DNA of 47,605 nucleotides from a virus. The translations under genes and the position numbers were made by a program. The notes below the pieces were generated by a model. The model was not told the origin of the DNA. It did not search any database and was given only the letters and a program-made list of their open reading frames with translations. Positions 23,454 through 47,605 of the stretch are shown here, piece after piece. How positions within the stretch are numbered: the stretch's first letter is position 1; every line of letters begins with the position of its first letter. Location of the stretch: positions 1 through 47,605 of IMG/VR virus record IMGVR_UViG_3300043449_001384; one strand, given 5' to 3'.

Positions 23454-23493
23454 TGGGTCGGGGTGTTCCACCACCGCCGACCCTCGTATTTTA

Positions 23494-31059: not shown

Positions 31060-31062
31060 ACC

Positions 31063-31314: not shown

Positions 31315-32177
31315 CCCTCGACCGCACCGACGCCCTCGCCGCCCTCGCCGCCCTCCGCCGCTCCGCCCTGGTGCGCGACGATTCCGGCCCCTCGCGCATT
31401 TACCGCGACGCCACCGGAAACATCTATCACTCGGTCACCAGCATCCTCAGCGCCACCGCCGACAAGTCCGGCCTCGAAGGCTGGGCAAAGCGCCAGAACG
31501 CCATCTACGGCCCTGGAGCGGCCGAGCAAGACCGCACCGTCGCCGCCACCCGAGGCACCCAAGCGCACTCCCAAGCGGAGTACATGCTCAAAACCGCCAA
31601 CAAAGTTGCTCGCTCGGTCGCCAACAAGCGCGGCTCGCTCCGCACCGACCCCCACGGCCTCCCCCATATCCCCACACCCATCTTCCGCTGGGCGCTAGCG
31701 CAGGCGTTGCCAAGCGTCCCGTCAGTCAGCCTCAGCGCCAAAGGCTTCGCCCGCAGCCTCACCACCTGGATAGCCAACAACGTTACCCAGTGCCACGCCT
31801 GCGAATTCTCCATTCATCACCCGGCAGGTTTCGCCGGCACAGCTGATGGCCTCATCTCGGTCGACAAGCACACCCTCGCCGAGTTTGATGCACCATCTGC
31901 ATTGGCCGGCGCACCATTCATCGCAGATTGGAAGACGAGCAACACCAAGCGCAGCCCCGAGATGATGGCTGACTACTGCCTCCAAGCCGGCGCCTACTCG
32001 CTCGGCCTAGAGCACCTAACCGGCATTCAACCCGCTGGCGCATTCATCGTGGTGGCTCGCCGCATCGGCGAACCCAACGTGACATTCATCAACCGCGACC
32101 AACTCGTTCGCGCCCAAGACGGCTACCTGGAGCGCTGCAGAATCTTTTACGAAGCCATTCAAGGGGTAGGACCCTAA
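31311..32177 (+). CDS. PD-(D/E)XK exonuclease (RecB/Cas4-like)
   Basis: The 288-residue enzyme has the PD-(D/E)XK layout: TRGTQAHSQAEYML near 80-95 (motif with the metal-binding His), GFAGTADGLI near 172-181 (Asp), FIADWKTSN near 203-211 (Asp-x-Lys) and YCLQAGAYSLGLEH near 222-235 (motif IV Gln-Tyr). The GTG start overlaps the previous stop. It probably degrades host DNA or takes part in phage recombination together with the SSB-like protein. The final bases contain the first of three GCCATTCAAGG repeats. Confidence 0.75.
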   Translation: MTLDRTDALAALAALRRSALVRDDSGPSRIYRDATGNIYHSVTSILSATADKSGLEGWAKRQNAIYGPGAAEQDRTVAATRGTQAHSQAEYMLKTANKVARSVANKRGSLRTDPHGLPHIPTPIFRWALAQALPSVPSVSLSAKGFARSLTTWIANNVTQCHACEFSIHHPAGFAGTADGLISVDKHTLAEFDAPSALAGAPFIADWKTSNTKRSPEMMADYCLQAGAYSLGLEHLTGIQPAGAFIVVARRIGEPNVTFINRDQLVRAQDGYLERCRIFYEAIQGVGP

Positions 32178-32222
32178 AAGCCATTCAAGGGCCTTCCCGG
32201 GGCTCCTAGGGGCCATTCAAGG
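32153..32222 (+). repeat. Three direct GCCATTCAAGG repeats
   Basis: GCCATTCAAGG occurs at 32154-32164, 32180-32190 and 32212-32222, with spacings of 26 and 32 bp; a weaker TGCATTCATAGG follows at about 32231. The first copy overlaps the exonuclease 3' end. The spacers can form GC-rich hairpins around CCCGGG and GGGGCC. It could be a protein-binding array such as a replication origin. This is inference. Confidence 0.55.
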
Positions 32223-32416
32223 CCAAAATTTGCATTCATAGGGAAACATCCGAGTTTCGGAGGTTTGATTCTGCTGGAGCGTGGCCGGAATTCCCGCCTG
32301 CGGGCGATGCAGATTCTGCATTGGTGCGCGGTGCTGGCGGTGTTGCGACGCATTCTCAACAACCTAGGGCGATGCGGTGAGAACGAGAATGGGAATCGTT
32401 CTCAACCGCAGGCCAC
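32178..32416. other. Non-coding region between convergent units (possible origin or control region)
   Basis: No convincing gene is visible here. The region holds the second and third GCCATTCAAGG repeats, a CAACCTAGG (32360-32368) like the late-block motif, and a strong imperfect hairpin at 32374-32409 in which GCGGTGAGAACGA pairs with TCGTTCTCAACCGC around GAATGGGAA. A terminator for the minus-strand gene follows. Origin or transcription-control use is inferred. Confidence 0.45.
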
Positions 32417-32443
32417 AAAAAAGGCCAGCCGCTGGGGCTGGCC
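32417..32443 (-). terminator. Rho-independent terminator of 32456-32611
   Basis: On the minus strand GGCCAGCC pairs perfectly with GGCTGGCC around a 5-base loop and is followed by TTTTTT. It starts 13 nt after the stop of the small membrane-protein gene. Confidence 0.85.
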
Positions 32444-32455
32444 AGGGTGGGGAGA

Positions 32456-32611
32456 TCAGATCAGCTGCAGGATGGCGAGGATCCCCAACAGCGCTAGGAG
32501 GATTGTCTGGCGTTGCTGCAGGGCTTCGATCTGACCTTGCTGGTGATCTGTAAGTTCAACGGCGGCCGTGATGATATCGGCCTTGCTGGAGCGTTCTGTG
32601 ATGGTCTGCAT
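32456..32611 (-). CDS. Small membrane protein (51 aa)
   Basis: The 51-residue product has a polar, helical first half (ERSSKADIITAAVELTDHQQ) and one hydrophobic segment at 37-51 (ILLALLGILAILQLI) that reaches the C terminus. This is the plan of a small tail-anchored membrane protein. The gene stands alone between two terminators, with CCTAGG 12 nt before its ATG and a possible promoter further up (TTGCGA, CACTGT at 17 bp). It may act on the host membrane or be an early effector. No family is recognised. Confidence 0.65.
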   Translation of the reverse strand: MQTITERSSKADIITAAVELTDHQQGQIEALQQRQTILLALLGILAILQLI

Positions 32612-32737
32612 GGCTGGTTTGCCTAGGTGCGGTGTTAGGTGAGCCGGGTGGCTCAGCTTCCATGATCGCGCCTACAGTGTGAGGCTAGCGTGATCTTCGC
32701 AAATCTTAACACGTGCAAGCAGCTAACACTGCGCCAA

Positions 32738-32762
32738 TAAAAAGCCGCCCAAGGTGGGCGGC
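32738..32762 (-). terminator. Rho-independent terminator of the 34884-32798 unit
   Basis: On the minus strand GCCGCCCA pairs with TGGGCGGC around a 3-base loop, followed by TTTTTATT. It lies 36 nt after the stop at 32798 and ends the minus-strand block of small genes. Confidence 0.85.
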
Positions 32763-32797
32763 ATTTGCAAACGACACAACAGCGACATAAAACCGAC

Positions 32798-33208
32798 TCA
32801 GAACGGCAGGTCCTCAGCGGCACTGGTGCGTTGGTGCCGGAGCCGGAGCCGCTTGGGGGCGGCAGACTCTACGGCACGCCGGAACGATGCCAGGGCTGAG
32901 GCGTGCGCCTTGGTAGCACGGATGGCCAGACTTGGATCGTTTTCGACCATCGCTCTTCCTGCGAGAAGTTCGAGGCGATAAAGTCCAAGCATGGCCTGGC
33001 AATCCAAAGCGTGGCCGGTAGCGGGCTCGCACAATTCGAGCGCCGCCACCCTCACCGATCGTTGAGCCGTTCGCAGGCTGACGCCGTAGCGTTCAGCGAT
33101 CAGCTGGGAGGCAATCGCCGTACCGGTGCCGGAGGCTAGCAGCTCCAAGGCGGCCGCCTCTCGGTCGGTCAGCTCTGCTTCTGTGGCTCGCTGCTGTTTG
33201 TCAGGCAT
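32798..33208 (-). CDS. Helix-turn-helix protein (136 aa)
   Basis: The frame is open from 33229, but the ATG at 33208 overlaps the upstream stop by 8 nt. The product begins with TEAELTDREAAALELLASGT followed by an HTH (IASQLIAERYGVSLRTAQRS), then a helical, Arg-rich C terminus. It is probably a DNA-binding regulator. A small terminase subunit is a less likely alternative because a better candidate lies at 35012. Confidence 0.6.
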   Translation of the reverse strand: MPDKQQRATEAELTDREAAALELLASGTGTAIASQLIAERYGVSLRTAQRSVRVAALELCEPATGHALDCQAMLGLYRLELLAGRAMVENDPSLAIRATKAHASALASFRRAVESAAPKRLRLRHQRTSAAEDLPF

Positions 33209-34884: not shown

Positions 34885-34937
34885 GGATCTGATTGGAGCG
34901 AAGGCCACCGGTTGGGCTCGTTCCGCTCTCACCTCAC

Positions 34938-34943
34938 AGTGTA
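34938..34943 (-). promoter_or_regulatory. -10 element (TACACT) for the minus block
   Basis: On the minus strand CTCTACACTGTGAGG contains TACACT about 50 nt before the chosen ATG at 34884. Similar CACTGTAG strings precede the minus genes at 22186 and 32611. No clear -35 box is seen. Confidence 0.4.
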
Positions 34944-34974
34944 GAGCATATGGCGCAACCTGTCCACACTTGCA

Positions 34975-34985
34975 GGCAACCTAGG
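34975..34985 (+). promoter_or_regulatory. Late-block motif GGCAACCTAGG, copy 4 (before terminase)
   Basis: This exact copy lies 26 nt before the ATG at 35012. A second GCAACCT lies at 34955-34961, 21 bp upstream of the one in the motif, giving a direct repeat of two helical turns. The motif marks the start of the packaging and head block. Confidence 0.6.
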
Positions 34986-35011
34986 CTGAGAGTCTGCAGC
35001 AGTGGTACGGA

Positions 35012-35359
35012 ATGAGCGAGCCGGCCGAGAAAAGGAAGCGAGCCGCTTTTACTGCACTGGAGATCGCAGACCAGGTCGACGCGGTGAGGGACTGGCTCGC
35101 CCAAGGACTGCGGCCGAACCAGGTCCGGCGGCGCTGTGCGGAAGAATGGGGCCTGCAGACTCGGGCGGCAGAATCCAGAATGCAGCTGGCGCGTCAGCGC
35201 ATGGTGCAGGATCTGGAGTCGATCGACCGTAAAGAAAAAGCGGCTGAGCTACTGGAAGCGGCGGCAGAGATTCTGCAGCTGGCGCGTGAGACTCGCCAGC
35301 TCAGCAATGCGCTCGGCGCGCTCGGCTTCATATCGAAATTGACGAGGCTCTCCGACTGA
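35012..35359 (+). CDS. Terminase small subunit (putative)
   Basis: The 115-residue product has an N-terminal HTH-like part (VDAVRDWLAQGLRPNQVRRR; CAEEWGLQTRAAESRMQLAR) and a long helical C terminus that could form an oligomer ring (AAELLEAAAEILQLARETRQ). This layout, the size and the place just before the large terminase support a small terminase that binds the packaging site. The gap to the large subunit is 454 bp, longer than usual. Confidence 0.6.
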   Translation: MSEPAEKRKRAAFTALEIADQVDAVRDWLAQGLRPNQVRRRCAEEWGLQTRAAESRMQLARQRMVQDLESIDRKEKAAELLEAAAEILQLARETRQLSNALGALGFISKLTRLSD

Positions 35360-35650
35360 CCCAAGCGGGCAGCACTGGAGCGGACACGGTGAGCAAATGG
35401 AGCGGATCAGCTCGGCTGCAGTCTCTCAACGATTCCGACCCCCCGTCACCCCCTAGCGCACACCTCGGCCAGCCTGTCCGCGCATCTGTCCGCGCATCTG
35501 TCCATCACACAGATACGCAACGGCAAAACCTAGTGCTAGCAAGGGGTCTGGCTTGTCCAATCTGTCCAAGCATGACACCCCACCACGGGGCCCCCAGGGC
35601 CCTCCCCCCTACAAAGGGATCGGGCCAGGAGCGGTGATACCCGCTGCTCT

Positions 35651-35683
35651 CTGAACAAACCAAAAATCACACTACAATCACAC
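35651..35683 (+). promoter_or_regulatory. Sigma-70 type promoter (TACAAT) upstream of terL
   Basis: TACAAT at 35673-35678, with CTGAAC 16 bp upstream, lies within the 12-mer CTACAATCACAC that is repeated exactly at 30192-30203. It lies 130 nt before the terminase start, so the transcript would have a long leader that includes the C-tract region. Confidence 0.5.
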
Positions 35684-35700
35684 CCTAGTCTCTAGGTACA

Positions 35701-35731
35701 CCCCTCCCCCAGTCCCCACCCCCGGTCCCCC
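35701..35731 (-). other. G-quadruplex-forming tract (minus strand)
   Basis: Five C-runs of 4-5 bases (35701-35704, 35706-35710, 35714-35717, 35719-35723, 35727-35731) are separated by loops of 1 or 3 bases. The minus strand fits a very stable G-quadruplex and the plus strand an i-motif. It is in the terL leader, inside the possible packaging region. Confidence 0.65.
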
Positions 35732-35813
35732 GTCTCGGGCTGCGCCCTCGACAAAAGAAAGTACCCGCCTGCCGGTGCGCCTAGACTGCTAGGCAACACC
35801 ACCCAGCCCCCGC

Positions 35814-37211
35814 ATGTCCCTGCTGGCACGAATCCCCGCAGGCGGCTGCCTCACCCCTCCCACTGGAACGGGAACCCGCTGCACCGAAACCGAAGAATCC
35901 CTCCGAACCCGCATATTTGACTCCTTACTCCCGGCTCAAAAAGACTTCTGCCTAGACACCACAACCAAAATTCTCGGCTTCTGCGCGGGCTTTGGTGCGG
36001 GAAAAACAAGGGGGCTGGCGGCCAAGTGCCTACTCATGGCCATGGACAACCCCGGCACCGTAATGGCCGTGTTCGAACCCACCGCCGTGATGGTGCGTGA
36101 CGTCTGGATGCGCGCTTTCGACAGCTTCCTCGAAGACTTTGACATTCCCTACGACTTCCGAGTATCCCCCTCCCCCGAGTACATCATCCACCATCCCACT
36201 GGAACGACCACCCTCCTGTGCCGCGCCACTGAAACGTGGAACCGCCTGCGCGGCCAGACGCTAAGTGCTGTCCTCGCTGACGAAATCGACACCTCCCCCC
36301 AAGAAATCGCTCAAAAAGCCGTCGAAATGATGCTGGCTCGCTTGCGGGGCGGCACACAGCCTCAACTAGTCATGGCCTCTACCCCGGAGGGTTACCGCGC
36401 CATGCACCGCCTTTTCGTCCAAGACTTCCACGATGCCGAAGCAGTCGGCGACCTGGATCGCGTCGCCAACCTCAAAAAAGAACGCCGTCTCATCCGTGCC
36501 CGCACAAGCGATAACCCTTACCTACCCGCCGGATTCGTCGAGTCTCTACAGAGCGCGTACCCTCCTCAACTTCTGGCCTCATATTTAGAAGGACAATTTG
36601 CCAACCTCGAAAACACAACTGTCTACTACGCCTTCGACCGCGACACGCACTGGTGCGACACCGCCATCGAAGAAGACGATCGCCTCTTTGTTGGTTGCGA
36701 CTTTAACGTCGGTGCCGTTTTTGCCGAAGTCATCGTGCGACGCGGCCCCGAATTCCACGTTGTAGCCGAGCACCACCCCAAAGACACACCCGCCCTGGTG
36801 CGCCTTCTCCACGAAACATACCCAGATCACGTCGCCGCCGGAAACGTAGTCATCGTCCCCGACGCCGCCTCCCGCCACCGCTCTACCGCCAACGCCGCCG
36901 AATCCGACCTCGCCCTCCTCCGCAAAGCCGGGTTTTCTATCAAAAACCAGCTCGCCAACCCACCAGTGGCCGACCGCGTCAACTGTGTCGTTATGCTTCT
37001 GCTATCCAACCGCCTTCGCGTCCACAGCCGCTGCCGCTACCTAATCAAAGCCCTGGAGCAGCAGGCGTACGACACCACAGGCCGCCCTGGCAAAGGCCGC
37101 GGCGGCCTTGACGACCTAAGCGGCCCCGTCGATGCACTCGGTTACGCCGCGTACAAGCTCGCCCCACTGCAACGCTACGCCACAGGAGGCAGCAATTTTG
37201 TCACCTACTAA
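35814..37211 (+). CDS. terL: Terminase large subunit
   Basis: This 465-residue packaging motor has an ATPase with Walker A GFGAGKT at 59-65 and Walker B VLADEID at 153-159, and a C-terminal RNase H-like nuclease with acidic residues D296 (FVGCDFNVG), D350 (VIVPDAAS) and D440 (SGPVDALGYAAY). Length is normal for the family. It pumps DNA into the prohead and cuts it. An HNH gene lies tail to tail with it, overlapping by 4 nt at the stop codons. Confidence 0.93.
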   Translation: MSLLARIPAGGCLTPPTGTGTRCTETEESLRTRIFDSLLPAQKDFCLDTTTKILGFCAGFGAGKTRGLAAKCLLMAMDNPGTVMAVFEPTAVMVRDVWMRAFDSFLEDFDIPYDFRVSPSPEYIIHHPTGTTTLLCRATETWNRLRGQTLSAVLADEIDTSPQEIAQKAVEMMLARLRGGTQPQLVMASTPEGYRAMHRLFVQDFHDAEAVGDLDRVANLKKERRLIRARTSDNPYLPAGFVESLQSAYPPQLLASYLEGQFANLENTTVYYAFDRDTHWCDTAIEEDDRLFVGCDFNVGAVFAEVIVRRGPEFHVVAEHHPKDTPALVRLLHETYPDHVAAGNVVIVPDAASRHRSTANAAESDLALLRKAGFSIKNQLANPPVADRVNCVVMLLLSNRLRVHSRCRYLIKALEQQAYDTTGRPGKGRGGLDDLSGPVDALGYAAYKLAPLQRYATGGSNFVTY

Positions 37212-37717
37212 CCTCCCCACCGTATTTCACCTTCGGCAATTCTTCGGCTCCTAACTTCCGCCACCCTTGCCTGCGCCTCCGCTTCCGTTGCGTACCATTC
37301 GTTGGCCGTAACCCCTTTTTCTGTGTATACACCGACTTTCCACGGCCTGCCTTTCACACCGTAAGATACGTAACAATACCCTAAACCAGTATTATTCATT
37401 CGATTACTGGCGTTTGTAAGTAACCTTAAGTTGGCCCAGCAATTATTACTAGGATTTTTGTCAATATGGTCTACTTGATAACCGGCAGGCACATCTTCGC
37501 CTGTAACCCACTTCCAAATCAGCAAATGTTGAAAATACTGCCTATAACAAAGCTTTACCCTCCAGTAGCCCCACTGGTTTTGGTAGCCGATACGCCGCTC
37601 TAAGGGGCAACTACGGCCTGATTTTTTCTTTTGCCAGTAAAGTCCGCCGCCCAGGGGGTCGTAGAAAATTTCGTCCCACAGCAGCTCGGCAGGCGGAAGC
37701 GGCTTAGACTTCGTCAT
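37208..37717 (-). CDS. HNH homing endonuclease with AP2-like domain, next to terL
   Basis: The frame is open from 37798, but the ATG at 37717 follows an AGAGG ribosome site. The 169-residue product has the HNH core (LLIWKWVTGEDVP; YQVDHIDKNPSNNCWANLRL; LTNASNRMNN) and a C-terminal AP2-like DNA-binding part (WKVGVYTEKGVTANEWYATE). It is AT-rich and inverted relative to the head genes, the marks of a mobile gene. Confidence 0.85.
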   Translation of the reverse strand: MTKSKPLPPAELLWDEIFYDPLGGGLYWQKKKSGRSCPLERRIGYQNQWGYWRVKLCYRQYFQHLLIWKWVTGEDVPAGYQVDHIDKNPSNNCWANLRLLTNASNRMNNTGLGYCYVSYGVKGRPWKVGVYTEKGVTANEWYATEAEAQARVAEVRSRRIAEGEIRWGG

Positions 37718-37803
37718 GAAGACCTCTGTACAGGTTTTCCGTGCGTAGGGGATGCCAGTCCCGCTACGCGCATTTATCCTACCACGCCTAGAGGACAAAA
37801 CCC

Positions 37804-37953
37804 ATGCCTCTCAAGCGCGGCTCTTCCAGCAAAACGGTCAGCTCAAACGTCCGCAAGCTGATGGACGAGGGCTACACCCAAAAACAAGCGGTGGCCATTG
37901 CACTATCCAAGGCTGGTAAACCTAAAAAGAAACCCACCGCCGGTAAGAAGTAA
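37804..37953 (+). CDS. Small basic protein (49 aa)
   Basis: The product [20 protein letters not shown], followed by a Gln/Ala helix and a Lys-rich end, is one of three small basic proteins that many marine and cyanobacterial phages carry between terminase and portal. It may bind DNA or assist packaging; the role is unknown. The TAA shares one base with the next ATG. Confidence 0.7.
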
Positions 37954-38123
37954 TGGCCAAGCGCGGTTTGTACAGTAACATTGCAGCTAAAAAAAGGCGC
38001 ATCGCCACTGGCTCGGGCGAAAAAATGCGCCGCCCCGGCTCCGAAGGCGCCCCCACCGACGCGGCCTTCAAGAAGTCCGCAAAAACAGCCAAGCGGCCCA
38101 AAGGCCGCAAGAAAACCAAATAG
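37953..38123 (+). CDS. Small lysine-rich protein (56 aa)
   Basis: The 56-residue product ([20 protein letters not shown], then GSGEKMRRPGSEGAPTDAAF and a Lys-rich end) has a pattern that recurs in cyanophage and other marine phage genomes next to terminase and portal. It is very basic and likely binds nucleic acid. The start is coupled to the previous stop (TAATG). Confidence 0.75.
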   Translation: MAKRGLYSNIAAKKRRIATGSGEKMRRPGSEGAPTDAAFKKSAKTAKRPKGRKKTK

Positions 38124-38132
38124 GACTGGATC

Positions 38133-38408
38133 GTGGCCATCATCTACCGCGGCGAACGCTTTGAGGGCTACAACAAGCCCAAACGCACCCCCTCCCACCC
38201 CGACAAAAGCCACGCCGTTCTCGCCAAGGAAGGCGAAACCGTCAAGCTGATCCGCTTCGGCCAACAAGGCGTCTCCGGCTCACCGCCCCGCGACAACGAG
38301 TCGGACGCCGCCCGCAAACGCCGCGCCGCCTTCAAAGCCCGCCACGCCGAAAACATCGCCAAAGGCAAAATGTCAGCCGCCTACTGGGCCAACAAAGTCA
38401 AGTGGTAA
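38133..38408 (+). CDS. Conserved marine-phage protein (91 aa)
   Basis: The GTG-started 91-residue product contains YRGERFEGYNKPKRTPSHPD, HAVLAKEGETVKLIRFGQQG and a final KMSAAYWANKVKW. These segments are well conserved in cyanophages and other marine phages near terminase or portal genes. The function is not known. It completes the set of three small basic proteins. Confidence 0.75.
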   Translation: MAIIYRGERFEGYNKPKRTPSHPDKSHAVLAKEGETVKLIRFGQQGVSGSPPRDNESDAARKRRAAFKARHAENIAKGKMSAAYWANKVKW

Positions 38409-38452
38409 CTACACCACGGGCAAACTAGGATATAAGAGTATTCCACTGGCTC

Positions 38453-40042
38453 GTGAGCGACAACAGTAGCTACCCGATCGCTGCGGCCACCCCCAACCGC
38501 CCCGCCTACACCCTCCCCCTCCCGCCCGGTGTCAACAACACCGACCCCTCCAAACGCACCCAACTCGTCCAGTCCATGGAGCCCGCCTGGGACCCCGTGG
38601 ACGTCTGCGTCGGCGGCACCGCCGAACTCCGCACCCGCAGCCGCGATTTCATCCCCCAAGAACCCCGCGAAGACGACGCCGCCTACAACCGCCGCATCTT
38701 CCACGCCACGCTACCGCCGTTCTTGACGCGACTTGCCTCCCAAGCCGCCGGCGTCATCCTCCGCAAAGGCATCGACATCCAAGGCGACGACTACTGGCTC
38801 AACTGGTCCCAAGACGTCACCGGCGACGGCACCACCCTCAACGAATACGCCCGCCGCCAACTCATCACCGCCATCCTCTACGGCCACTCCAGCTCGATCG
38901 TCGATTTCTCCGCATCTGCGACGCCTCGAAACTTGGCAGAGGAACGTGCGTTAGCCCGTAAGCCCTACCTCGTCCCCATCCACCCCCGCCAAATCCTCGG
39001 CTGGCGCACCTCCAACGACAGCTGGAGCAGCGAACTCTCCCAAGTCCGCATCCGCGAAACCATCGTCCTCCCCGCCGGCCGCTACGGCGAAGAACTCACC
39101 GACCAAATCCGCGTCCTGGAGCCCGGCCGCTACGAACTCTGGCGCCCCAACACCCCCCGCACCAACCTCCCCACCGGCGTCCAACTCCCCGGCCCCACCG
39201 CCTGGGAAATCTACGAAAACGGCACCACCACGCTGGATCGGATCCCCCTCGTCACCGTCTACTCCAGCCGCCTCGGCAACCTGTTGAGCAAACCTCCACT
39301 TCTGGAGGTTGCTCAACTCAACATCGCCTACGCCCAGCGCTTCTGCGACTTCCACCACTCGATCCACGTCGGCGCCTCCCCCATCCTCGTCCTCCGCGGC
39401 TTCGACCCCGACTCCGACAGCCCCATCGGCCTCTCGGTCAACAGCGCCCTGCTCCTCCCGCCCGACGGAGGCGCGGAATACGTCGAACCCACCAGCGACG
39501 CCTTCGACGCCCAACTCAAGTGCCTCGCCGCCCTTGAAGACCAAATCTCCCGCCTCGGCATCAACACGCTCACCCAACAGAACGTCACCAACGCCGCCGC
39601 CGAATCCAAGCGCATGGATCGCATCGACAGCGACTCCATCATGGCCGTCATCGCCGGCGACCTAGAGCGCTCGATCGCCGAAATCTTCGACATCGCCGCC
39701 TCGTACGTCGGCATCGAACCCCCCACCATCTCCATCCCCCGCGACTACGAAAACCGCCTCCTCGACGGCAACCAAATCACGGCCTACCTGCAGCTCTTCA
39801 TGCAGAACGCCATCTCCCAAAAAACCCTCCTCACCATCCTCCAACAGGGCGAAGTCCTTCCCACCACCCTCGATCTCGACGCCGAAGTCTCCGCCACCGC
39901 CGAAATGCTCGAAGAGCAAATGGCCATGTCCCGCCTCGGCGCCGCGGCTGGTCCTGACCTAGCCTTCCAAAACGCCGGCCAAGGCCAAGACCTAACCAGC
40001 CAAACCCTCCCCACCCCACTTCGCTCGGGCCGCGACGAGTAA
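38453..40042 (+). CDS. Portal protein (DUF4055-like)
   Basis: This 529-residue protein follows the terminase and precedes the MuF-like head protein, the standard portal place. It has FLTRLASQAAGVILRKGIDI near 90-110, a Pro-rich helix-loop region in the middle and an acidic, helical C terminus, consistent with the DUF4055 portal family. It forms the 12-mer ring at the capsid vertex through which DNA passes. The start is a GTG at 38453, preceded by CAAACTAGGATATAAGAG, which may hold a -10 element. Confidence 0.8.
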   Translation: MSDNSSYPIAAATPNRPAYTLPLPPGVNNTDPSKRTQLVQSMEPAWDPVDVCVGGTAELRTRSRDFIPQEPREDDAAYNRRIFHATLPPFLTRLASQAAGVILRKGIDIQGDDYWLNWSQDVTGDGTTLNEYARRQLITAILYGHSSSIVDFSASATPRNLAEERALARKPYLVPIHPRQILGWRTSNDSWSSELSQVRIRETIVLPAGRYGEELTDQIRVLEPGRYELWRPNTPRTNLPTGVQLPGPTAWEIYENGTTTLDRIPLVTVYSSRLGNLLSKPPLLEVAQLNIAYAQRFCDFHHSIHVGASPILVLRGFDPDSDSPIGLSVNSALLLPPDGGAEYVEPTSDAFDAQLKCLAALEDQISRLGINTLTQQNVTNAAAESKRMDRIDSDSIMAVIAGDLERSIAEIFDIAASYVGIEPPTISIPRDYENRLLDGNQITAYLQLFMQNAISQKTLLTILQQGEVLPTTLDLDAEVSATAEMLEEQMAMSRLGAAAGPDLAFQNAGQGQDLTSQTLPTPLRSGRDE

Positions 40043-40046
40043 GAAA

Positions 40047-40250
40047 ATGCCTAACATCTTCGCCTCCTTCACCGCCGATACCCGTTGCCACACCTGCCGC
40101 TGGTGGGTGCCCACCGCTGACCTCCAGCGCATGAAAGAAGACACCATGCCTGGAACGTGCCACCGCTACGCCCCCGACCACTCCGGCTGGCCCGAAACCC
40201 ACGCCTTCCAATCCTGCGGCGACTGGACCTTCAACCCCGACAATGACTGA
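40047..40250 (+). CDS. Small zinc-binding protein (67 aa)
   Basis: The product has CHTCRWW near 14-20, GTCHRYAP near 36-43 and a final SCGDWTF, so four Cys could hold one zinc ion. Similar small Cys proteins lie beside portal genes in other phages. It starts 4 nt after the portal stop and overlaps the next gene by 8 nt. The function is unknown. Confidence 0.65.
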   Translation: MPNIFASFTADTRCHTCRWWVPTADLQRMKEDTMPGTCHRYAPDHSGWPETHAFQSCGDWTFNPDND

Positions 40251-41067
40251 AGACGAATACCTACTCCAGCTGGCCCGCGCCATCACGAGCCGCGAAGACC
40301 TCATCGCCGCCGAGGTCCGCCCCATCCTGCTGGAACTCGCCCTCCGCATCCGCGCCCTCCTCTTCCAGTCGTTCGGCCAATCCACCAGCCAACCCCTCCG
40401 CGCCCTCCTCTACAACCAACTCCGCCCCCAAATCCTCACCCTCCTACAGCAACTCACCGACCGCTACTTCGCTCAAATCAGCACCATCCTGCCCGAGCTA
40501 TATCCCATCCTCGCCACCACCCACGCTCGCTTCGCTCGCACCAACACAACCCCCCAAACCCCACCTTTAGGCGACCTTCTAACTGGAGCGACCGTCCTCA
40601 ACCGTTCCGCCCGCGACCTCCTCGCCCCCGGCCCCACAGGCATCTCCCCCCTCACCCTCCAACTCGAACGCCTCCTAGACACCACAATCCAACCCGCCCT
40701 CCTCCGCGAAACCCCCACCGAAAAGCTCCTCCCCTCGGTCGTCGCCGTCCGCACCAGCACCGGCACCGAGAGCGGCATCCTCACCCCCCTAGTCCGCAAA
40801 GGCACCGTCCTCAACGCCTGGCTCGACCGCCTCGGAGCCACCACCGCCGCCCTCCTCTGGTCGTTGAATCTACCGATTCAACAAGAGGTATTCCGCGAAG
40901 CGGACCCGCCCGACTTCTACCGCTGGAACGCCATCCTCGACCCCAAAACTTGCCCAATCTGCATCCCACTGGACGGCACAACCGCCCCCACGCCACAAGC
41001 CTTCCCCAATGGTGCGCCGCCTGTACATCCGCGCTGCCGTTGTATAACAGTACCCGTATTCTCTTAG
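40243..41067 (+). CDS. MuF-like minor head protein
   Basis: The 274-residue product is mostly helical and ends with WNAILDPKTCPICIPLDGTT and VHPRCRCITVPV, the signature C-terminal part of Mu gpF-like head morphogenesis proteins, with a Cys pair and a His-Pro-Arg-Cys motif. Such proteins sit near the portal and help head assembly or DNA ejection. Confidence 0.8.
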   Translation: MTEDEYLLQLARAITSREDLIAAEVRPILLELALRIRALLFQSFGQSTSQPLRALLYNQLRPQILTLLQQLTDRYFAQISTILPELYPILATTHARFARTNTTPQTPPLGDLLTGATVLNRSARDLLAPGPTGISPLTLQLERLLDTTIQPALLRETPTEKLLPSVVAVRTSTGTESGILTPLVRKGTVLNAWLDRLGATTAALLWSLNLPIQQEVFREADPPDFYRWNAILDPKTCPICIPLDGTTAPTPQAFPNGAPPVHPRCRCITVPVFS

Positions 41068-41077
41068 GCTGTTATTT

Positions 41078-41092
41078 GTGTGCGACGCACAC
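41078..41092. promoter_or_regulatory. Perfect palindrome before scaffold gene
   Basis: GTGTGCG and CGCACAC form an inverted repeat around one A. It is followed by GGTAAACTAAGAG, with TAAACT as a possible -10 element, 30 nt before the GTG of the scaffold gene. It could be an operator, or the hairpin of a weak terminator. Confidence 0.5.
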
Positions 41093-41124
41093 GGTAAACT
41101 AAGAGTGTACCCTCACTTACCCGC

Positions 41125-41862
41125 GTGACTGAATCAGTCAACGGGGTTCCTCCCGCGGAGGAACTGAGTGCGTCCGCGACGCCCTCCCCCGACGCTCAAA
41201 GCACCCCCAGCTCCGACGAACTGGCTCGCCTCCGGGCAAAACTAGACCTCGTCACCGAAGACAAACGGCGAGCCGGCGAGAAAAACGCCGAACTCAACCG
41301 AAAACTTCAGGACCTGGAGGAATCCCTTCGAGCGACGCAGGCCCAGCTCAAGTCCGGTCAGACCACCCAACTGGAGCAATCGGGCGAATACAAAAAGCTG
41401 TGGGAAGACGCCAAGGAAACCAATCTCAACCTGGAGCGCCAGCTCCACGAGATGCAACTCACGCTTGACGCCGAGCGCCAAGAGCGAGCCAAGGAAACCT
41501 TGAAATCCCGCGCCATCCAAGAGATCACTGCAGCCAAGGCCCTCCGGCCCGACCAGCTTCTCGCCCTCATTGCCTCCGACCTCCGCGAGGTCGATGGCAA
41601 ACCCGCAGTCATCTCAGGCGGCATCGAAATCCCCCTAGCCGACCACCTGGCCCGCCTCCGCGCCCCAGACTCCGGCTGGGACCACCATTTCGCCCCCACA
41701 GGCGCAAAAGGCATGGGATCCTCCGCCGCCGCCCCCGTATCCGCCCCCACTGGAACGAACCCGTTCCTCGTGAGCCCTCCAAACCTGACCGAGATCGCAC
41801 GTCTTTTCCGCGAAGACCGTGCCGCCCACGACCGCTACAAAGCCGAGGCCTCCCGAGGCTGA
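41125..41862 (+). CDS. Scaffold protein
   Basis: The 245-residue GTG-started product is acidic with a long coiled coil at about 30-125 (LRAKLDLVTEDKRRAGEKNA; ETNLNLERQLHEMQLTLDAE) and a flexible Pro/Ala C terminus ending in a charged helix. This build and the place just before the capsid gene define a GP20-like scaffold that guides capsid assembly and then leaves. Confidence 0.82.
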   Translation: MTESVNGVPPAEELSASATPSPDAQSTPSSDELARLRAKLDLVTEDKRRAGEKNAELNRKLQDLEESLRATQAQLKSGQTTQLEQSGEYKKLWEDAKETNLNLERQLHEMQLTLDAERQERAKETLKSRAIQEITAAKALRPDQLLALIASDLREVDGKPAVISGGIEIPLADHLARLRAPDSGWDHHFAPTGAKGMGSSAAAPVSAPTGTNPFLVSPPNLTEIARLFREDRAAHDRYKAEASRG

Positions 41863-41897
41863 GCGGTACGCTCTCTCCCCCTTACTGAGTTCCAGCC

Positions 41898-42938
41898 ATG
41901 GCAGTTTTGCGCGGCGACGTAATCATCCCCGAGATTTTTACGCCGTACCTGATTGAAGCCACCACCGTCCGCAACAGCTTCCTGACCTCAGGAGTTGTGA
42001 CCGCTCTCGACGCCCTCAACGTCGACCAAGGCGGCGACAAAGTCACCATCCCCAACTGGAAGGCCGACCTGTCCGGCGACGCTGAGCGTCTCACCGACAG
42101 CACCAGCCTGACCCCCGGCAAAATCACTGCCGACAAGCAAGTCGGCGTGGTCCTGCACCGCGGCCGCGCTTGGGAATCCCGCGACCTAGCCCGCCTCGCC
42201 GCTGGCTCCGACCCCATGGGCGCCATCGGCGCCAAAGTGGCCGACTACATCGCCAACCAGCAGCAGAAGGACCTGATCGCCTCCCTCAAAGGCGTCTTCG
42301 GTGCCCTCGGCTCCAGCAACAGCGGTGCTGCCTTCGCAGCCCTCTCCGTTGATGCCTCTGGCTCGGGCGAAACCGTCCTCGGCCCCCGCCAAATCGCCGC
42401 CGCCGAGGCCATCCTCCTCGAAGACGCCGACAAACTCGGCGCCATCGTCGTCCACCCCCTGGTGTACGCCGACCTCAAGGAACGCAAGGCCATCGACTTC
42501 GTGACGGCCACCGACGCCCGCGTCACCGCCTCCACCGTCGTGGCTGGCTCGCTCGACGCCATGAACGCCTTCGGCGGTTCTGTGGCAGCTGCCTACACGG
42601 CCAACACCCAAATCCCCTACTACATGGGCATGAGGGTGATCCGCAGCAAGGACGTGCCTGTCTCCTCCGGCAAGTACGCCTGCTACGTCATGGCCTCCGG
42701 CTCGGTCGGCACCGGCCAACAAGCCGCCTTGCGTTCTGAAGTGGACCGGGACATCCTGGCCAAGTCCGACGCCATGTCGGTCGACTGGCACAACGTCTAC
42801 CACCCCCTGGGCGCCCGCTGGGTCGGCTCTGCCAACCCCACCACGGCCGACCTGGAAACCGCTGCCAACTGGGAGAAGGTGTTCGAAACCGAGAACATCG
42901 GAATCGTCCGTATCACCGTCACCTCCAACTTCGACTGA
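41898..42938 (+). CDS. Major capsid protein
   Basis: The 346-residue product has the N-terminal IIPEIFTPYLIEATTVRNSF and central LTPGKITADKQVGVVLHRGR typical of HK97-fold coat proteins of siphoviruses. A YIANQQQKDLIASLKGVFGA helix and the C-terminal ENIGIVRITVTSNFD fit as well. It follows the scaffold gene and is followed by a hairpin terminator, as expected for the most highly expressed gene. Confidence 0.87.
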   Translation: MAVLRGDVIIPEIFTPYLIEATTVRNSFLTSGVVTALDALNVDQGGDKVTIPNWKADLSGDAERLTDSTSLTPGKITADKQVGVVLHRGRAWESRDLARLAAGSDPMGAIGAKVADYIANQQQKDLIASLKGVFGALGSSNSGAAFAALSVDASGSGETVLGPRQIAAAEAILLEDADKLGAIVVHPLVYADLKERKAIDFVTATDARVTASTVVAGSLDAMNAFGGSVAAAYTANTQIPYYMGMRVIRSKDVPVSSGKYACYVMASGSVGTGQQAALRSEVDRDILAKSDAMSVDWHNVYHPLGARWVGSANPTTADLETAANWEKVFETENIGIVRITVTSNFD

Positions 42939-42966
42939 GTCTCGGGCTAACGCCCTAGACATAACC

Positions 42967-42988
42967 GCCCCACCGCAGTAGGTGGGGC
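42967..42988 (+). terminator. Terminator after major capsid gene
   Basis: GCCCCACC pairs with GGTGGGGC around a 6-base loop and is followed by ACCTTTCTTCTCC. The T tract is interrupted, so termination may be partial and leave lower expression of the genes downstream. Confidence 0.6.
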
Positions 42989-43015
42989 ACCTTTCTTCTC
43001 CCACTGGATCGACCC

Positions 43016-43408
43016 ATGGCAAGCCTCTTCGAGCTTGAGAACCCCGCTTTCGGTAACCAATACCGGAAGACCACTGTGACCACCCTGGCCGCCTCTGGCG
43101 CCCAAACCGCCACCGCAGCCATGCTGCTGGGCGGCGTCCTCGTCTCCACCGCCACCGCCGCCTTCACCCTGACTACCGCCGTCGGCGCAGACATCTGCAC
43201 CGCCTTGGCCGCCGTCAACCAGAACGTGGTCGGCATCAGCTTCGAGTTCTCGATTGTGAACCTCGGCACCTCGACGTACCACATCACCCTGTCCGCCGGC
43301 GCCACCGGCGTCACCGTCAGCGGCGATGCCATCGTTGAGGCCGGCACCTCCAGCACCTTCCGTGCCGTGGTGACCGCCGCCAACACCGTCGTGATCTACA
43401 AGGTCTGA
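43016..43408 (+). CDS. Capsid decoration-like protein
   Basis: The 130-residue product is rich in Ala, Thr and Val and strongly beta-prone (AAMLLGGVLVSTATAAFTLT; STYHITLSAGATGVTVSGDA). It lies right after the capsid gene. A capsid-surface or head decoration role is likely from place and composition. Its TGA shares one base with the next ATG. Confidence 0.55.
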   Translation: MASLFELENPAFGNQYRKTTVTTLAASGAQTATAAMLLGGVLVSTATAAFTLTTAVGADICTALAAVNQNVVGISFEFSIVNLGTSTYHITLSAGATGVTVSGDAIVEAGTSSTFRAVVTAANTVVIYKV

Positions 43409-43557
43409 TGGGCCTCTTCGCCTTCCGGCGACTGAGAGAACAGGAGGCTGCTTCGGCGGCCTCCGTCACTCCCCCAGAACCCGCCCCCACCGCCCCACCG
43501 GCGGCCCCCACCAAAACCCGCCGCCCCCGCAAGGAGCCCCCCAATGGAACGGAGTGA
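43408..43557 (+). CDS. Small Pro/Ala-rich protein (49 aa)
   Basis: The product starts MGLFAFRRLREQEAASAASV and continues with Pro/Ala repeats and a basic end. It is coupled by one base to the previous gene and overlaps the next by 14 nt. It is disordered in appearance. The function is unknown; it may be a linker or accessory capsid peptide. Confidence 0.55.
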   Translation: MGLFAFRRLREQEAASAASVTPPEPAPTAPPAAPTKTRRPRKEPPNGTE

Positions 43558-43777
43558 TTTTCAAGGCGCCGACTACATCAGCGGCACCACCGCCTTCGCC
43601 GGCAAATACGGCGCCATCACCGCCGTCGCCGCAGCTGTCCTCGACGCTGCCACCGTCGCCGCCGACTACACCGGCGACTCGCTCGCCAGCCTGCCCATCC
43701 CCGCTGGCACGACTATCTACGGCGTCTTCACCAACATCAAACTCACCAGCGGCAAGGTGATCGCCTACAAACTCTGA
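43544..43777 (+). CDS. Small capsid-associated protein (77 aa)
   Basis: The 77-residue product has SGTTAFAGKYGAITAVAAAV and PAGTTIYGVFTNIKLTSGKV, a pattern close to short phage head-fibre or capsid-surface proteins. It shares the Thr/Ala/Val composition of the protein at 43016. It ends in a TGATG overlap. Confidence 0.55.
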   Translation: MERSDFQGADYISGTTAFAGKYGAITAVAAAVLDAATVAADYTGDSLASLPIPAGTTIYGVFTNIKLTSGKVIAYKL

Positions 43778-43917
43778 TGGCCGTCAAATCCAAAGCCGGC
43801 ATCAGCGGCACCCGCAACGGCTACCGCCCCGGCAAGCCTAAAAAGACCAACCAAGGTCAAGGCCAGCACAGCCGCCCCAACCACGGCCGCAAAAAGCTGC
43901 GCGGCCAAGGCCGCTAA
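43777..43917 (+). CDS. Small basic protein (46 aa)
   Basis: The product is very basic and polar (MAVKSKAGISGTRNGYRPGK, then KPKKTNQGQGQHSRPNHGRK), with no hydrophobic core. It overlaps the previous stop by one base. Similar tiny basic proteins occur after capsid genes in marine phages. It may bind packaged DNA. Confidence 0.6.
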   Translation: MAVKSKAGISGTRNGYRPGKPKKTNQGQGQHSRPNHGRKKLRGQGR

Positions 43918-43947
43918 CCGGAATCCTAGGAATAACGCCAGCCGCCA

Positions 43948-44517
43948 ATGCCCGCCTCGATTACCGCCACGGTGGGCAGCGCCACCGCTAACTCCTACCT
44001 CACCATCGCGGCTGCCGACTCGATCGCCGAAACGATGCTCGGCACCCTGGCGTGGACGTCCGCAACAACAGACCAAAAAACTCGCGCCCTCATCACCGCC
44101 ACCCGCGGCCTCGACACCCTCGACTGGATCGGCGACCGCACCACCACAACCCAAGCCCTTGACTGGCCTCGCACCGACGCAAGCTGCGGCGGCATTGACT
44201 ACCCGGACGACGAAATCCCCGAGCAGCTCAACTACGCCACCTTCGACCTAGCCAACGCCCTACTCGGCACCCCCACCCTGCTGCAGTCGCCCAGCTCCGG
44301 CAGCGCCGAACTCGTCCCCGGCGTCCCCAACAAGGACCTGCGCCGCCTCAAACTCGACGTGATGGAGCTGGAGTTTAGAACGGATATATCAGTAGCCTCA
44401 TCCGCAACGGTTAGCCCGTTGTCTGCTCTGCCCCACCTCGCCACAATCCTGGGCTGCCTCACCACCAGCGTGATCCCCGGCGGCATGGGCCGAGTCATCG
44501 ACCGCGTCCGCAGCTAG
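43948..44517 (+). CDS. Head-tail connector (DnaT-like adaptor)
   Basis: The 189-residue product has the pattern of phage head-tail adaptors: an early NSYLTIAAADSIAETML, then TRALITATRGLDTLDWIGDR and TTQALDWPRTDA, followed by a helix with LNYATFDLANALLG. These fit the family annotated as putative DnaT-like. It joins the portal to the tail. CCTAGG lies 17 nt before the ATG, a relic or variant of the late-block motif. Confidence 0.7.
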   Translation: MPASITATVGSATANSYLTIAAADSIAETMLGTLAWTSATTDQKTRALITATRGLDTLDWIGDRTTTTQALDWPRTDASCGGIDYPDDEIPEQLNYATFDLANALLGTPTLLQSPSSGSAELVPGVPNKDLRRLKLDVMELEFRTDISVASSATVSPLSALPHLATILGCLTTSVIPGGMGRVIDRVRS

Positions 44518-44546
44518 AGGCATACGGCATACTGCGGCGTTAGGCT

Positions 44547-45095
44547 GTGAGTATGCCAACTGCCTTCCCACAAGAGAAGCCAAAAAAGAAGCCGGTCCGC
44601 GGCTACTTGGCCACCCCGCTGTCCCGAGACGAGCAGCGCCACGTCGATCGCATGTACCGCGAACACGGCGGCCTCGTCAACCACATGGGCCGCAAGTTCT
44701 GCCGCAAGTACCCGGCCCTGCTCAAAGAAGACATTTACAGCTGCATCAACATCGCCTTCATCAAAACCTGCCGCGCCTGGAACCCCGAAAAAGGCACGTT
44801 CTCTACGATCTTCGCCATTTTCTGCGAAGGGGAGATCCGCCACTTCATCCGCGACCACAACTGGTCCGTCCGCGCCCCAAGCTCCGTTCGCTCGCTCGGC
44901 CTCCGCGCCCAATACATGCTCCGCGGCGGCGCCACCTTTGAAGCCGTCTGCGCCGAACTCAAAACCGAGTCTGAAGACCTAAAACTCGCCCTCTTCTCCG
45001 TCCAGTCGCTCGACCACGAAATCCAAGATTTTAAGTGGCATCTCTGCCCCCGCCCCACCCCATGGGAAGTCCTTGAGGCCACAGAGGAGGTGTAG
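44547..45095 (+). CDS. Sigma factor-like protein with region 2 only
   Basis: The 182-residue product has a clear sigma region 2 at about 36-105: YREHGGLVNHMGRKFCRKYP, EDIYSCINIAFIKTCRAWNP and GTFSTIFAIFCEGEIRHFIR, followed by the DHNWSVRAPSSVRSL linker typical of SigF/SigB-type factors. Residues 106-160 look like a region 3 domain. No region 4 is present, so it could not read a normal -35 box. It may be a late sigma factor that works with another protein, as T4 gp55 does with gp33 and gp45. Starts are GTG 44547 or ATG 44553. It stands inside the head-tail gene block. Confidence 0.75.
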   Translation: MSMPTAFPQEKPKKKPVRGYLATPLSRDEQRHVDRMYREHGGLVNHMGRKFCRKYPALLKEDIYSCINIAFIKTCRAWNPEKGTFSTIFAIFCEGEIRHFIRDHNWSVRAPSSVRSLGLRAQYMLRGGATFEAVCAELKTESEDLKLALFSVQSLDHEIQDFKWHLCPRPTPWEVLEATEEV

Positions 45096-45103
45096 AGTGT
45101 GGT

Positions 45104-45130
45104 GCTCCAGCGGGGTGCAACCCCTGGAGC
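45104..45130 (+). promoter_or_regulatory. Strong hairpin before HNH gene
   Basis: GCTCCAG plus GGGG (one bulged C between) pairs with CCCC plus TGGAGC around the loop TGCAA. It starts 9 nt after the sigma-like gene stop and 22 nt before the HNH start. It may end the sigma-like message or hold down translation of the HNH gene. Confidence 0.5.
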
Positions 45131-45132
45131 GC

Positions 45133-45159
45133 GACCACCCGCAACCGCCAGGTGATGCC
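45133..45159 (+). promoter_or_regulatory. Shared leader of HNH genes, copy 2
   Basis: The bases GACCACCCGCAAC, two variable bases and CCAGGTGATGCC match 23428-23453 (minus strand) with two changes. The string carries the ribosome site and start codon of two otherwise different HNH genes. Confidence 0.6.
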
Positions 45160-45826
45160 CAAGACTATAGATCTGACCGGCCAACAATTCGGCAGCTGGA
45201 CCGCACTCAGCTACGCAGGCTCATATCGCTGGCTATGCCGCTGCCAGTGCGGCACTGAGCGAGCCGTGTCTTCCCGCAGCCTCAAAGCCGGCCAAAGCAC
45301 AAGCTGTGGCTGCTCTTACAAAAAGAAACCGGGTGATACCTTCGGCAGACTGACGCTGCTGGAGCAAATCGGCACCAAAGGTAAAAGTGCGATTTGGCGC
45401 TGCCGGTGCGAGTGCGGCAACGAAACCATGGTCAATAGCAGCAACCTTGGCTGGGACACGCAAAGCTGCGGGTGCATTCGCCGAGAAACCGCGGGCCAGC
45501 TGAACAGGACACACGGGCATAGCCGCCCCTCAGTAGGTGTATCGCGTACCTACAGGATCTGGCTCAACATGAAGCAGCGCACGACTAACCCCAACAACCC
45601 AGACCACGAACTGTACCTAGGACGGGGCATCAAGTGCTGCAAGCGGTGGCTTGACAGCTTTGAAGATTTTTTAGAAGACATGGGCGAGTGCCCGGACGGC
45701 TTAACGATTGATCGCATCAATAATGAAGGCGACTACGAACTAGGGAACTGCCGCTGGGCCGATATCGTCACACAAGCCAATAACCGCAGGCCTCGGCGCT
45801 GGAAAGTCCGCCCCACGGAAAACTAG
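45155..45826 (+). CDS. HNH endonuclease with two Cys zinc modules
   Basis: The frame is open from a GTG at 45152; the ATG at 45155 follows AGGTG. The 223-residue product has two N-terminal Cys modules with the same plan (WLCRCQCGTERAV to TSCGC; WRCRCECGNETMV to SCGC) and a C-terminal HNH-like part (SRTYRIWLNMKQRTTNPNNP; CPDGLTIDRINNEGDYELGN; NCRWADIVTQANNRR). The gene sits between the sigma-like gene and the tail tube gene. Confidence 0.82.
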   Translation: MPKTIDLTGQQFGSWTALSYAGSYRWLCRCQCGTERAVSSRSLKAGQSTSCGCSYKKKPGDTFGRLTLLEQIGTKGKSAIWRCRCECGNETMVNSSNLGWDTQSCGCIRRETAGQLNRTHGHSRPSVGVSRTYRIWLNMKQRTTNPNNPDHELYLGRGIKCCKRWLDSFEDFLEDMGECPDGLTIDRINNEGDYELGNCRWADIVTQANNRRPRRWKVRPTEN

Positions 45827-45859
45827 GGGCATCACCCCCAGCTAAAGGGACGGCTTATC

Positions 45860-46621
45860 ATGGCAACAGGCAGTTTCTTTGCTAGCCTCAACTATCGTCT
45901 GTTCGTAAAGCTGGGGACCACCGCTAGCACGATTCCAACCACCAGTGCGGGCATGACCCGAATCCTGTCGCTAGACAACGCTGGTATCCAAGGTACATCA
46001 GAGTCCACCGCTGTGGTGGACTACGACTCGGAGCAAGGCTTCCAATCCAATCTTATCACCAGCCAGTCGTATTCCATTCCCGCAAGCATGAACCTCGACG
46101 TCACCGACGGCGGCTACGAGATCCTCAAAAAAGCAGCTATTAACGCTGCTGGTGGTGCTGTTCTTGAGTGGTATAGGGAAACCCCGGTAACTGATGCTTC
46201 CGGTGATGATCCTGAAATTCATGCCGGTTTGGCTCAAATTGGTGATTTCAGCGAAGATATTGTTGCCGGGAGTGTGGCGAAAGTTTCGTTTACTTTGAAC
46301 GGCTACGGCGCCTACAAGTTCTACCCGCAGGGCAACCCCGCCGCCACCCTGACAATCACCACCGCTGGCTCGGGCCTGACCCCCGCCACCTACACCGGCG
46401 TCTCGCTGATCTCCTCCAGCCCTGCCACTGGCATCGGCTCCGGCAAGGGCGCTACCGCCACCATCGTGGTGGCAGCAGGTGGCACGGTCACCGCCACCCC
46501 GACAATCGTGGCCGGCGGCACCAACTACCGCGTGGGCGACATCCTGACCGTGGCCCTCGGCGACGTGGGCGGCGCTGGCGCGGACGTGGTCCCCACCTTC
46601 ACCGTGGCTACAGTTTCCTGA
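45860..46621 (+). CDS. Major tail tube protein
   Basis: The 253-residue product (MATGSFFASLNYRLFVKLGT; DVTDGGYEILKKAAINAAGG; DFSEDIVAGSVAKVSFTLNG) has the typical layout of siphovirus tail tube proteins. The last 80 residues form a Gly/Thr-rich beta extension (GSGKGATATIVVAAGGTVTA), probably a surface domain on the tube. It is followed by a strong terminator, as expected for an abundant protein. Confidence 0.75.
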   Translation: MATGSFFASLNYRLFVKLGTTASTIPTTSAGMTRILSLDNAGIQGTSESTAVVDYDSEQGFQSNLITSQSYSIPASMNLDVTDGGYEILKKAAINAAGGAVLEWYRETPVTDASGDDPEIHAGLAQIGDFSEDIVAGSVAKVSFTLNGYGAYKFYPQGNPAATLTITTAGSGLTPATYTGVSLISSSPATGIGSGKGATATIVVAAGGTVTATPTIVAGGTNYRVGDILTVALGDVGGAGADVVPTFTVATVS

Positions 46622-46642
46622 AGCGTCCCCAGCTAATCACCC

Positions 46643-46669
46643 AGCCGCCCCTCACCGGGCGGCTTTTTT
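46643..46669 (+). terminator. Rho-independent terminator after tail tube gene
   Basis: AGCCGCCC pairs with GGGCGGCT around CTCACC and is followed by TTTTTTA. It lies between the tail tube gene and the stop of the convergent minus-strand gene at 46668. Confidence 0.88.
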
Positions 46670-47141
46670 ATGCGCCGCCCAACTCACGCCACCGCCGCAC
46701 AAAAAACGGCAGCGGCGGCTGCGCGTCAAGCGCCGCAGCTATCCAATTTCTACCAGGCCGTTTCCCAGGATTCACCAACCGTCCCGCCGGATTGACGTAA
46801 GCATCAAACGTTCCGCCCTCCAGAATCAAGTTTGCATATGGGGCCGTCCACGAAATCGTTAGCCGCCCCTGTTTAACCACCGGTGCTTGCTGTGAATCCC
46901 GCAGCCGCCCCGTATCCAAAATATCCCGCAGTCCCGGCTGAACGTAAACTCCTTTACCGCTCGGCTTACCGAGCCCTCCAATACTCTTAAAGCGCAGCGT
47001 CCCACGATCCCAATCCCACTTAACAAGACTCAGCTGAGTCCGCGCCTCCTCAGCAATGATTGGCGCAAAGTCCTCTAGTATCTGCGTGGATCGCCCCAGC
47101 AGCTTCTCGGCGTTCCAGCTTTTGATCCGCAGCTGGGCCAT
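46668..47141 (-). CDS. HK97 gp10-like tail completion protein (inverted)
   Basis: The 157-residue product fits HK97 gp10-like head-tail or tail-terminator proteins: an N-terminal helix with AEKLLGRSTQILEDFAPIIA, then LRDILDTGRLRDSQQAPVV and SWTAPYANLILEGGTF, the conserved TG(R/S)L and PYA segments, and a C-terminal PGRNWIAAALDA. It caps the tail tube or bridges head and tail. The gene is on the minus strand between the tail tube and tape-measure genes, an unusual orientation for a structural gene. It overlaps the upstream stop by one base (TGATG). Confidence 0.72.
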   Translation of the reverse strand: MAQLRIKSWNAEKLLGRSTQILEDFAPIIAEEARTQLSLVKWDWDRGTLRFKSIGGLGKPSGKGVYVQPGLRDILDTGRLRDSQQAPVVKQGRLTISWTAPYANLILEGGTFDAYVNPAGRLVNPGKRPGRNWIAAALDAQPPLPFFVRRWRELGGA

Positions 47142-47533
47142 CAGCTCTGGGTCCTGCTGGCCAGCCGAATCTTCACTCCCAGCGCGTCGGTCAGCACCGA
47201 TCCAATCAGCCCCGTCTCCCCGTAAGGCAACCGCACCTCCAGCACCTCACAGTCCTGCGCGTCCTGCCCTGCGAACTCGATCGTCCCAGAGGTTCCCACC
47301 TGCACCCCCGACCCCAGCGTCCCGCTCGTCACATACCCCTCGAACAGCGTCGTAATGATGTTTACCCCTGGGTAGGTCGTCTCCGCTACGCTCTCCCCCT
47401 TGAGAAACGCCCCCACTTCAACGGTGGTGGTATTCGCCACCACGTTGCCCGTCTCGGCATCCACCGTTGTCCCAGCCACTGGCACGGTGAAAGTCACCGT
47501 CGCGTTCTCCAGTCCCACCAGCGCCGAAGCCAC
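47141..47533 (-). CDS. Head-tail joining/closure protein candidate (inverted)
   Basis: The 130-residue GTG-started product is beta-rich (ATVTFTVPVAGTTVDAETGN; TVEVGAFLKGESVAETTYPG) with a late GSVLTDALGVKIRLASR segment. Its place before the gp10-like gene and its size fit a head closure or stopper protein, by analogy only. The two genes form a short minus-strand unit, divergent from the tape-measure gene. The 5' end is present again, in diverged form, at 1-111. Confidence 0.55.
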   Translation of the reverse strand: MASALVGLENATVTFTVPVAGTTVDAETGNVVANTTTVEVGAFLKGESVAETTYPGVNIITTLFEGYVTSGTLGSGVQVGTSGTIEFAGQDAQDCEVLEVRLPYGETGLIGSVLTDALGVKIRLASRTQS

Positions 47534-47605
47534 AGCCGTTCCGCTTTTACCCTAGTTTCCCGCCCGTGCCCGGCAACCTAGGTTGAAGGTCGATGCGGCT
47601 TCTGT
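47479..47605. repeat. Terminal overlap, right copy (127 bp exact)
   Basis: Identical to 57-183. It includes the GGCAACCTAGG motif (47572-47582) and the first bases of the tape-measure gene region. See the left copy. Confidence 0.85.

Follow-up and report, generated by a model that had tools for sequence, protein, structure and literature searches.

A short SigB-like sigma factor lacking region 4 and a candidate single-element late promoter associated with it in a family of siphoviruses

The gene at positions 44547-45095 (+ strand) of the IMG/VR genome IMGVR_UViG_3300043449_001384 is confirmed as a real, conserved member of the sigma-70 family, with regions 2 and 3 and no region 4. Across its relatives, this gene is associated with a short element, GGnAAn(C/T)TAGG, that lies closely upstream of late genes and on the late strand. 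We consider it probable (about 0.77) that the short protein serves as a sigma factor for late genes, guiding host RNA polymerase to late promoters made of a single element.

The whole stretch analysed here (the window) is a complete-looking, siphovirus-type genome of 47,605 nt with a 183-bp end repeat, which leaves 47,422 unique bases. Structural and lysis genes lie on the + strand, in a block that begins near 35,000, continues across the ends and finishes near 19,000, while the replication genes are on the − strand, with a gene for a full-length sigma factor at the far end of the replication block. The cyanosiphovirus KBS-S-2A has the same layout and a sigma gene at the equivalent place, whose product is 39% identical to the full-length sigma of the window. 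Because of this layout, and because the full-length sigma best matches the cyanobacterial RpoD/SigA model in NCBIfam, the virus probably infects bacteria of the cyanobacterial group. Another locus of the family (L229, JAURGS010000261.1), containing the short sigma gene, the head-tail adaptor gene Ad1, the tail gene and the element, is a contig of 3.3 kb assigned to a Rhodoferax MAG; it is probably a stray phage contig and is too short for a host to be named from it. Elsewhere in the window, positions 15167-16897 encode one protein that combines a glycosyltransferase part with a methyltransferase-like one, and the stretch 30900-33200 in the early block has overlapping ORFs on the two strands, together with several short imperfect repeats.

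The short sigma gene begins with GTG and encodes 182 aa, although translation could equally well start at the in-frame ATG 44553. The original prediction had described a second sigma-like ORF with a region 2, and profile searches, fold comparison and alignment agree on this. The protein matched PHROG 351 'RNA polymerase sigma factor' (E 7e-17) and the NCBIfam model TIGR02980 for SigB/F/G (E 1.1e-9, aa 32-123), while its match to Pfam Sigma70_r2 was weak and under the cut-off (E 1.5e-3); 17 of 20 family members matched the latter profile at E <= 0.01, the best at 3.9e-6. Comparison by hhalign with a phage SigF-like sigma of the SigB/F/G type gave a probability of 97.4% (E 9e-12) over regions 2-3. 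In Foldseek, nearly all named entries among the 50 matches listed in each of PDB and BFVD were sigma factors, at modest E-values and with a structure model whose pLDDT was only about 76. Region 2, of the SigB/F/G type, spans 44652-44864 (aa 36-106; + strand) according to these profile matches and to alignment with full-length sigmas. In that alignment, D62 takes the place of sigma70 D403 and is invariant in the family, the Q/E that follow in full-length sigmas are replaced by S/C, and the W433/W434 dyad is replaced, the helix reading FSTIFAIFCEGEIRHFIRD. A shortened region 3, including a 3.0-like stretch NWSVRAPSSVRSLG, follows at 44865-44999 (aa 107-151; + strand), as indicated by an alignment with 8x6g (S. 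aureus SigB) that covers profile positions 35-156, by the hhalign comparison with the phage SigF-like sigma and by helices predicted at 112-151. Taken together, the profile and alignment data identify the short protein as a SigB/F/G-like sigma. The domain plan given originally, region 2 without region 4, was therefore right about these two regions; it had overlooked region 3 and the start of linker 3.2.

The Pfam region 4 profile found no match in the short protein. Its IMG/VR relatives, at 41-98% identity, stop without exception at the same position, where a region 4 would be expected, and none of the 64 full ORFs extracted for the family, nearly all of them 173-197 aa long, contains this region. 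In its place stands a C-terminal tail at 45000-45092 (aa 152-182; + strand), whose beginning aligns with the start of the 3.2 linker of full-length sigmas. The tail, which reads SLDHE.. and then H-x-C-x-R-x-TP[W/M/Y][D/E]xLE..E, is conserved, hydrophobic and acidic, and has the invariant residues H157, H165, C167, R169, P172 and L176; the structure model has low confidence here and does not resolve it. Lying where region 4 would begin, the tail may contact the flap or another partner. It bears no resemblance to the C-terminus of the window DNA polymerase. Searches for region-4-like matches found no separate region-4 partner specific to the family genomes. Apart from the full-length sigma, such matches fell in the HTH of an HNH endonuclease of the window and in small membrane-HTH proteins that occur in phages lacking the family as well. 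These small proteins with a TM helix and an HTH (G013:C1:14822-15043, −; G018:C1:24363-24608, +; G016:C1:265-537, +; also S-CBS3 and other phages lacking the family) lie, in at least two of the three genomes, near the junction where early and late genes diverge. A two-subunit sigma with a separate region-4 partner was thus left with no specific candidate, and any such partner would have to lie beyond recognition.

The window contains eight sites of the element, all on the late (+) strand and 16-32 nt 5' of late genes when GTG 182 is taken as the tape-measure start. The 11-mer noticed originally, GGCAACCTAGG, is one form of the consensus, and its four exact copies indeed occupy four distinct places: 150-160, ahead of the tape-measure gene, whose likely start is GTG 182; 7154-7164, before 7191; 16888-16898, before 16921; and 34975-34985, before the first late gene (35002/35012). 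The copy at 47572-47582 (+) is the 150-160 site seen again through the 183-bp end repeat, not a fifth one. The form GGAAAACTAGG precedes the tail fiber gene 10647 (10613-10623) and the tail gene 45860 (45817-45827), GGCAAACTAGG precedes the portal gene 38453 (38419-38429), and GGAATCCTAGG, with one deviation, is found at 43920-43930 before Ad1 (43948), at the head of the unit to which the short sigma gene belongs. Before the tape-measure gene, a near-copy on the − strand, GGGAAACTAGG at 139-129, faces the element at 150; both lie within 129-160, which is repeated at 47551-47582.

To avoid bias from the 11-mer, motifs were sought by expectation-maximisation with no prior pattern. Starting from unrelated seeds (TATAAT, TTGACA), the search converged on this element, and about 26% of the 392 regions analysed upstream of late genes in other genomes contained it; the element was not found upstream of early genes or on the early strand. 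Counted over independent loci with the short sigma gene, the + (late) strand had 70 copies and the − strand 3, as compared with a mean of 1.7 and a maximum of 14 for 500 permuted patterns, and with one locus per 90% protein cluster the counts were 61 + and 9 − (p 1e-10). Loci that were fetched later and kept out of matrix building gave 66 + and 12 − in 150 kb, versus about 2.6 per strand in shuffles. The same element accompanies members of only 45-48% identity (L074-L080; 27 + and 0 −). The element is about 25 times denser in gene-bearing loci than in 80 KBS-S-2A-type loci lacking the family, and in isolated cyanosiphoviruses without the short sigma gene it is at chance level. The proposed tie between the short sigma and the 11-mer, as well as its late-gene placement, thus holds over more than 100 related loci and against a control group without the gene. 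Two apparent exceptions were rejected: L118 (motif, no gene) is a contig that stops before the gene's place, and G016 (gene, no motif) has a CTTAGG variant. We found no long, testable contig that has lost the gene. The association is strong but correlational, because it is confined to one phage clade, so that another clade-specific protein could read the element.

Among 96 non-redundant exact sites, 95 have an ORF start within 60 nt, mostly 16-27 nt away, as compared with 50% of random positions. At these sites A occurs seven nt after the T of the element in 64% of cases, and no conserved signal, including a -35, is present within 60 nt upstream. Relatives of the KBS-S-2A type that lack the family (L083, L135-L214) have a different late element, TA[AG][AC]CT(g), whose distance to the start codon is about 20-26 nt; here too A peaks seven nt past the T, and a -35 signal is lacking. 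Since this counterpart has the same start-codon spacing and A-peak, the nAAn(C/T)T core appears to take the place of the -10 hexamer, flanked by GG and AGG. The absence of a -35 loses weight as an argument for the short sigma, because the late promoters of phages lacking the family do without one too. The -10 box of SigB-type promoters, GGGWAW, has near-invariant Gs and A5 (PMC8346170); the GGnAAn half of the element fits this box, in agreement with a SigB/F/G-like short protein. Variation in region 2.4 residues and in the motif is weakly coupled and follows phylogeny, and such covariation was therefore rejected as support for the short sigma as reader.

Which sigma reads the element has to be argued, because a full-length sigma is found in all six family genomes of at least 40 kb, as well as in most of at least 28 kb. 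That of the window (19089-20048, − strand) is cyanobacterial RpoD/SigA-like, and a Pfam search found regions 1.2, 2, 3 and 4 in it, which confirms the full sigma factor noted originally. The sigma genes of the cyanosiphoviruses KBS-S-2A, S-CBS1, S-CBS3 and S-LBS1, which share the genome layout, correspond to this gene; their products, with regions 1.2-4, fall outside the short family, and in the papers found, cyanosiphovirus sigma genes are represented by the full-length factor alone. The element could thus be a late promoter that is read by the full-length phage sigma or by a host sigma, with the short protein assisting it, acting as an anti-sigma or competing for core as a decoy. In favour of this reading, relatives lacking the family operate their late promoters with a full-length sigma only, and the window's full-length sigma has diverged from that of KBS-S-2A (~39% identity). 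However, the -10-reading helix of the full-length sigmas is the canonical YAYWWIRQ in phages with either late motif, whereas the short protein departs from it. What sets the two groups of phages apart is that one of them has the short sigma, to which the SigB-like GGnAAn half is suited. We therefore regard a full-length or host sigma as an unlikely reader.

It is still less likely that the element is an operator, or acts as RNA, in the 5' UTR of late genes, with the true promoters farther upstream. The palindromic CCTAGG inside some copies would suit an operator. However, nothing is conserved in the 60 nt upstream, no sigma-70-type promoter pair was found on the + strand of the late block (34900-47605), the A-peak and the TA[AG][AC]CT counterpart fit a -10 element, and the element lies at too great a distance from the start codon to be a ribosome site.

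The original prediction had called the site among head-tail genes unusual for a regulator. It is not a local oddity of the window, since the position is conserved across the whole family: among loci with enough flank, the short sigma gene follows Ad1 (43948-44517, + strand, in the window; assigned by profile matches and relatives' loci) in 111 of 114 and precedes the tail gene (45860-46621, +; PHROG match and relatives' loci) in 101 of 107. Least probable of all is that this fixed position marks a structural protein of the virion or connector that keeps a remnant sigma fold, or a sigma that travels in the virion and is delivered together with the DNA, as profile searches of Pfam and PHROG matched the short protein to no structural family and its sigma motifs are kept across 41-98% identity; delivery in the virion is nevertheless conceivable. 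An HNH endonuclease gene (45152-45826, +) lies directly 3' of the short sigma gene, as in 12 of 107 relatives; together with those at 20211-20747 (−) and 22934-23563 (−), the HNH genes of the window between them adjoin both sigma genes and overlap the DNA polymerase gene at its 3' end. A terminator-like hairpin with a T run follows the tail gene (46643-46664, +).

For the late sigma reading, we infer a mechanism in which region 2 of the short sigma would bind the host core RNA polymerase and guide it to GGnAAn(C/T)TAGG, the nAAn(C/T)T core lying at the -10 position, the GG just upstream of it and the AGG in the discriminator. Transcription would start at an A seven bases beyond the T, and a -35 contact would be unneeded. 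The full-length phage sigma would probably act before the short one. Because the short sigma's own unit stands behind the putative promoter at 43920, late expression would then reinforce itself.

This arrangement resembles that of T4, whose late promoters consist of one element at the -10 place, A/T-rich just downstream, with an unconserved -35 (PMC2988020), and are served by a sigma without region 4 (PMC2988020; PMC7892883). Like gp55, the short sigma is a small sigma-family protein without region 4 and with a conserved, hydrophobic and acidic C-terminus, and a single -10-place element without a -35 precedes the late genes. The likeness to gp55 put forward originally therefore stands as a proposed way of working; as sequence kinship it does not, since hhalign detected no homology between the short family and eight gp55 proteins (probability 0.1%, E 0.43, as against 97.4% for SigB/F/G), and the short sigma is for this reason not filed as a gp55 family member. 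Unlike gp55, it retains region 3, ends in PTPWDVLE.. rather than LDFLYE, and is encoded inside the structural block of siphovirus-type genomes of about 45 kb; its element is GGnAAn(C/T)TAGG rather than a TATA box, and no gp33 or gp45 partner was identified. Regions 2 and 3 are shared with the group 3 sigmas SigB, SigF and SigG, including phage-borne SigF-like proteins (Goe8, f2b1), as is the GG..A preference at -10 (GGGWAW; PMC8346170), but these sigmas have a region 4 and a -35 element, and the short sigma has its own C-terminal tail instead. As in SigO-RsoA of Bacillus subtilis, regions 2 and 4 are not on one polypeptide; unlike there, no specific separate region-4 partner was found in the family genomes. 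SPO1 gp33/gp34 is a two-subunit sigma of the same kind as SigO-RsoA.

By these comparisons, the short sigma looks like a convergent, gp55-like late switch that evolved independently. Whether the likeness extends to a second T4-late-type system, in which a SigB-like sigma minus region 4 would be the sole specificity factor across widespread small siphoviruses, reading GG and AGG and using its acidic tail in place of region 4 (toward the flap, a clamp or another partner), is in our judgement evenly balanced. T4-like phages provide the best-known sigmas that lack region 4 and have promoters of their own, and the present family, if the reading is true, would be an unrelated case in compact siphoviruses. 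Its promoter code would be readable directly from sequence, so that late genes could be called in many uncultured viruses. It would also offer a natural minimal system for sigma-dependent initiation without -35 contacts, and the mechanism of gp55 would become testable through comparison with the short sigma.
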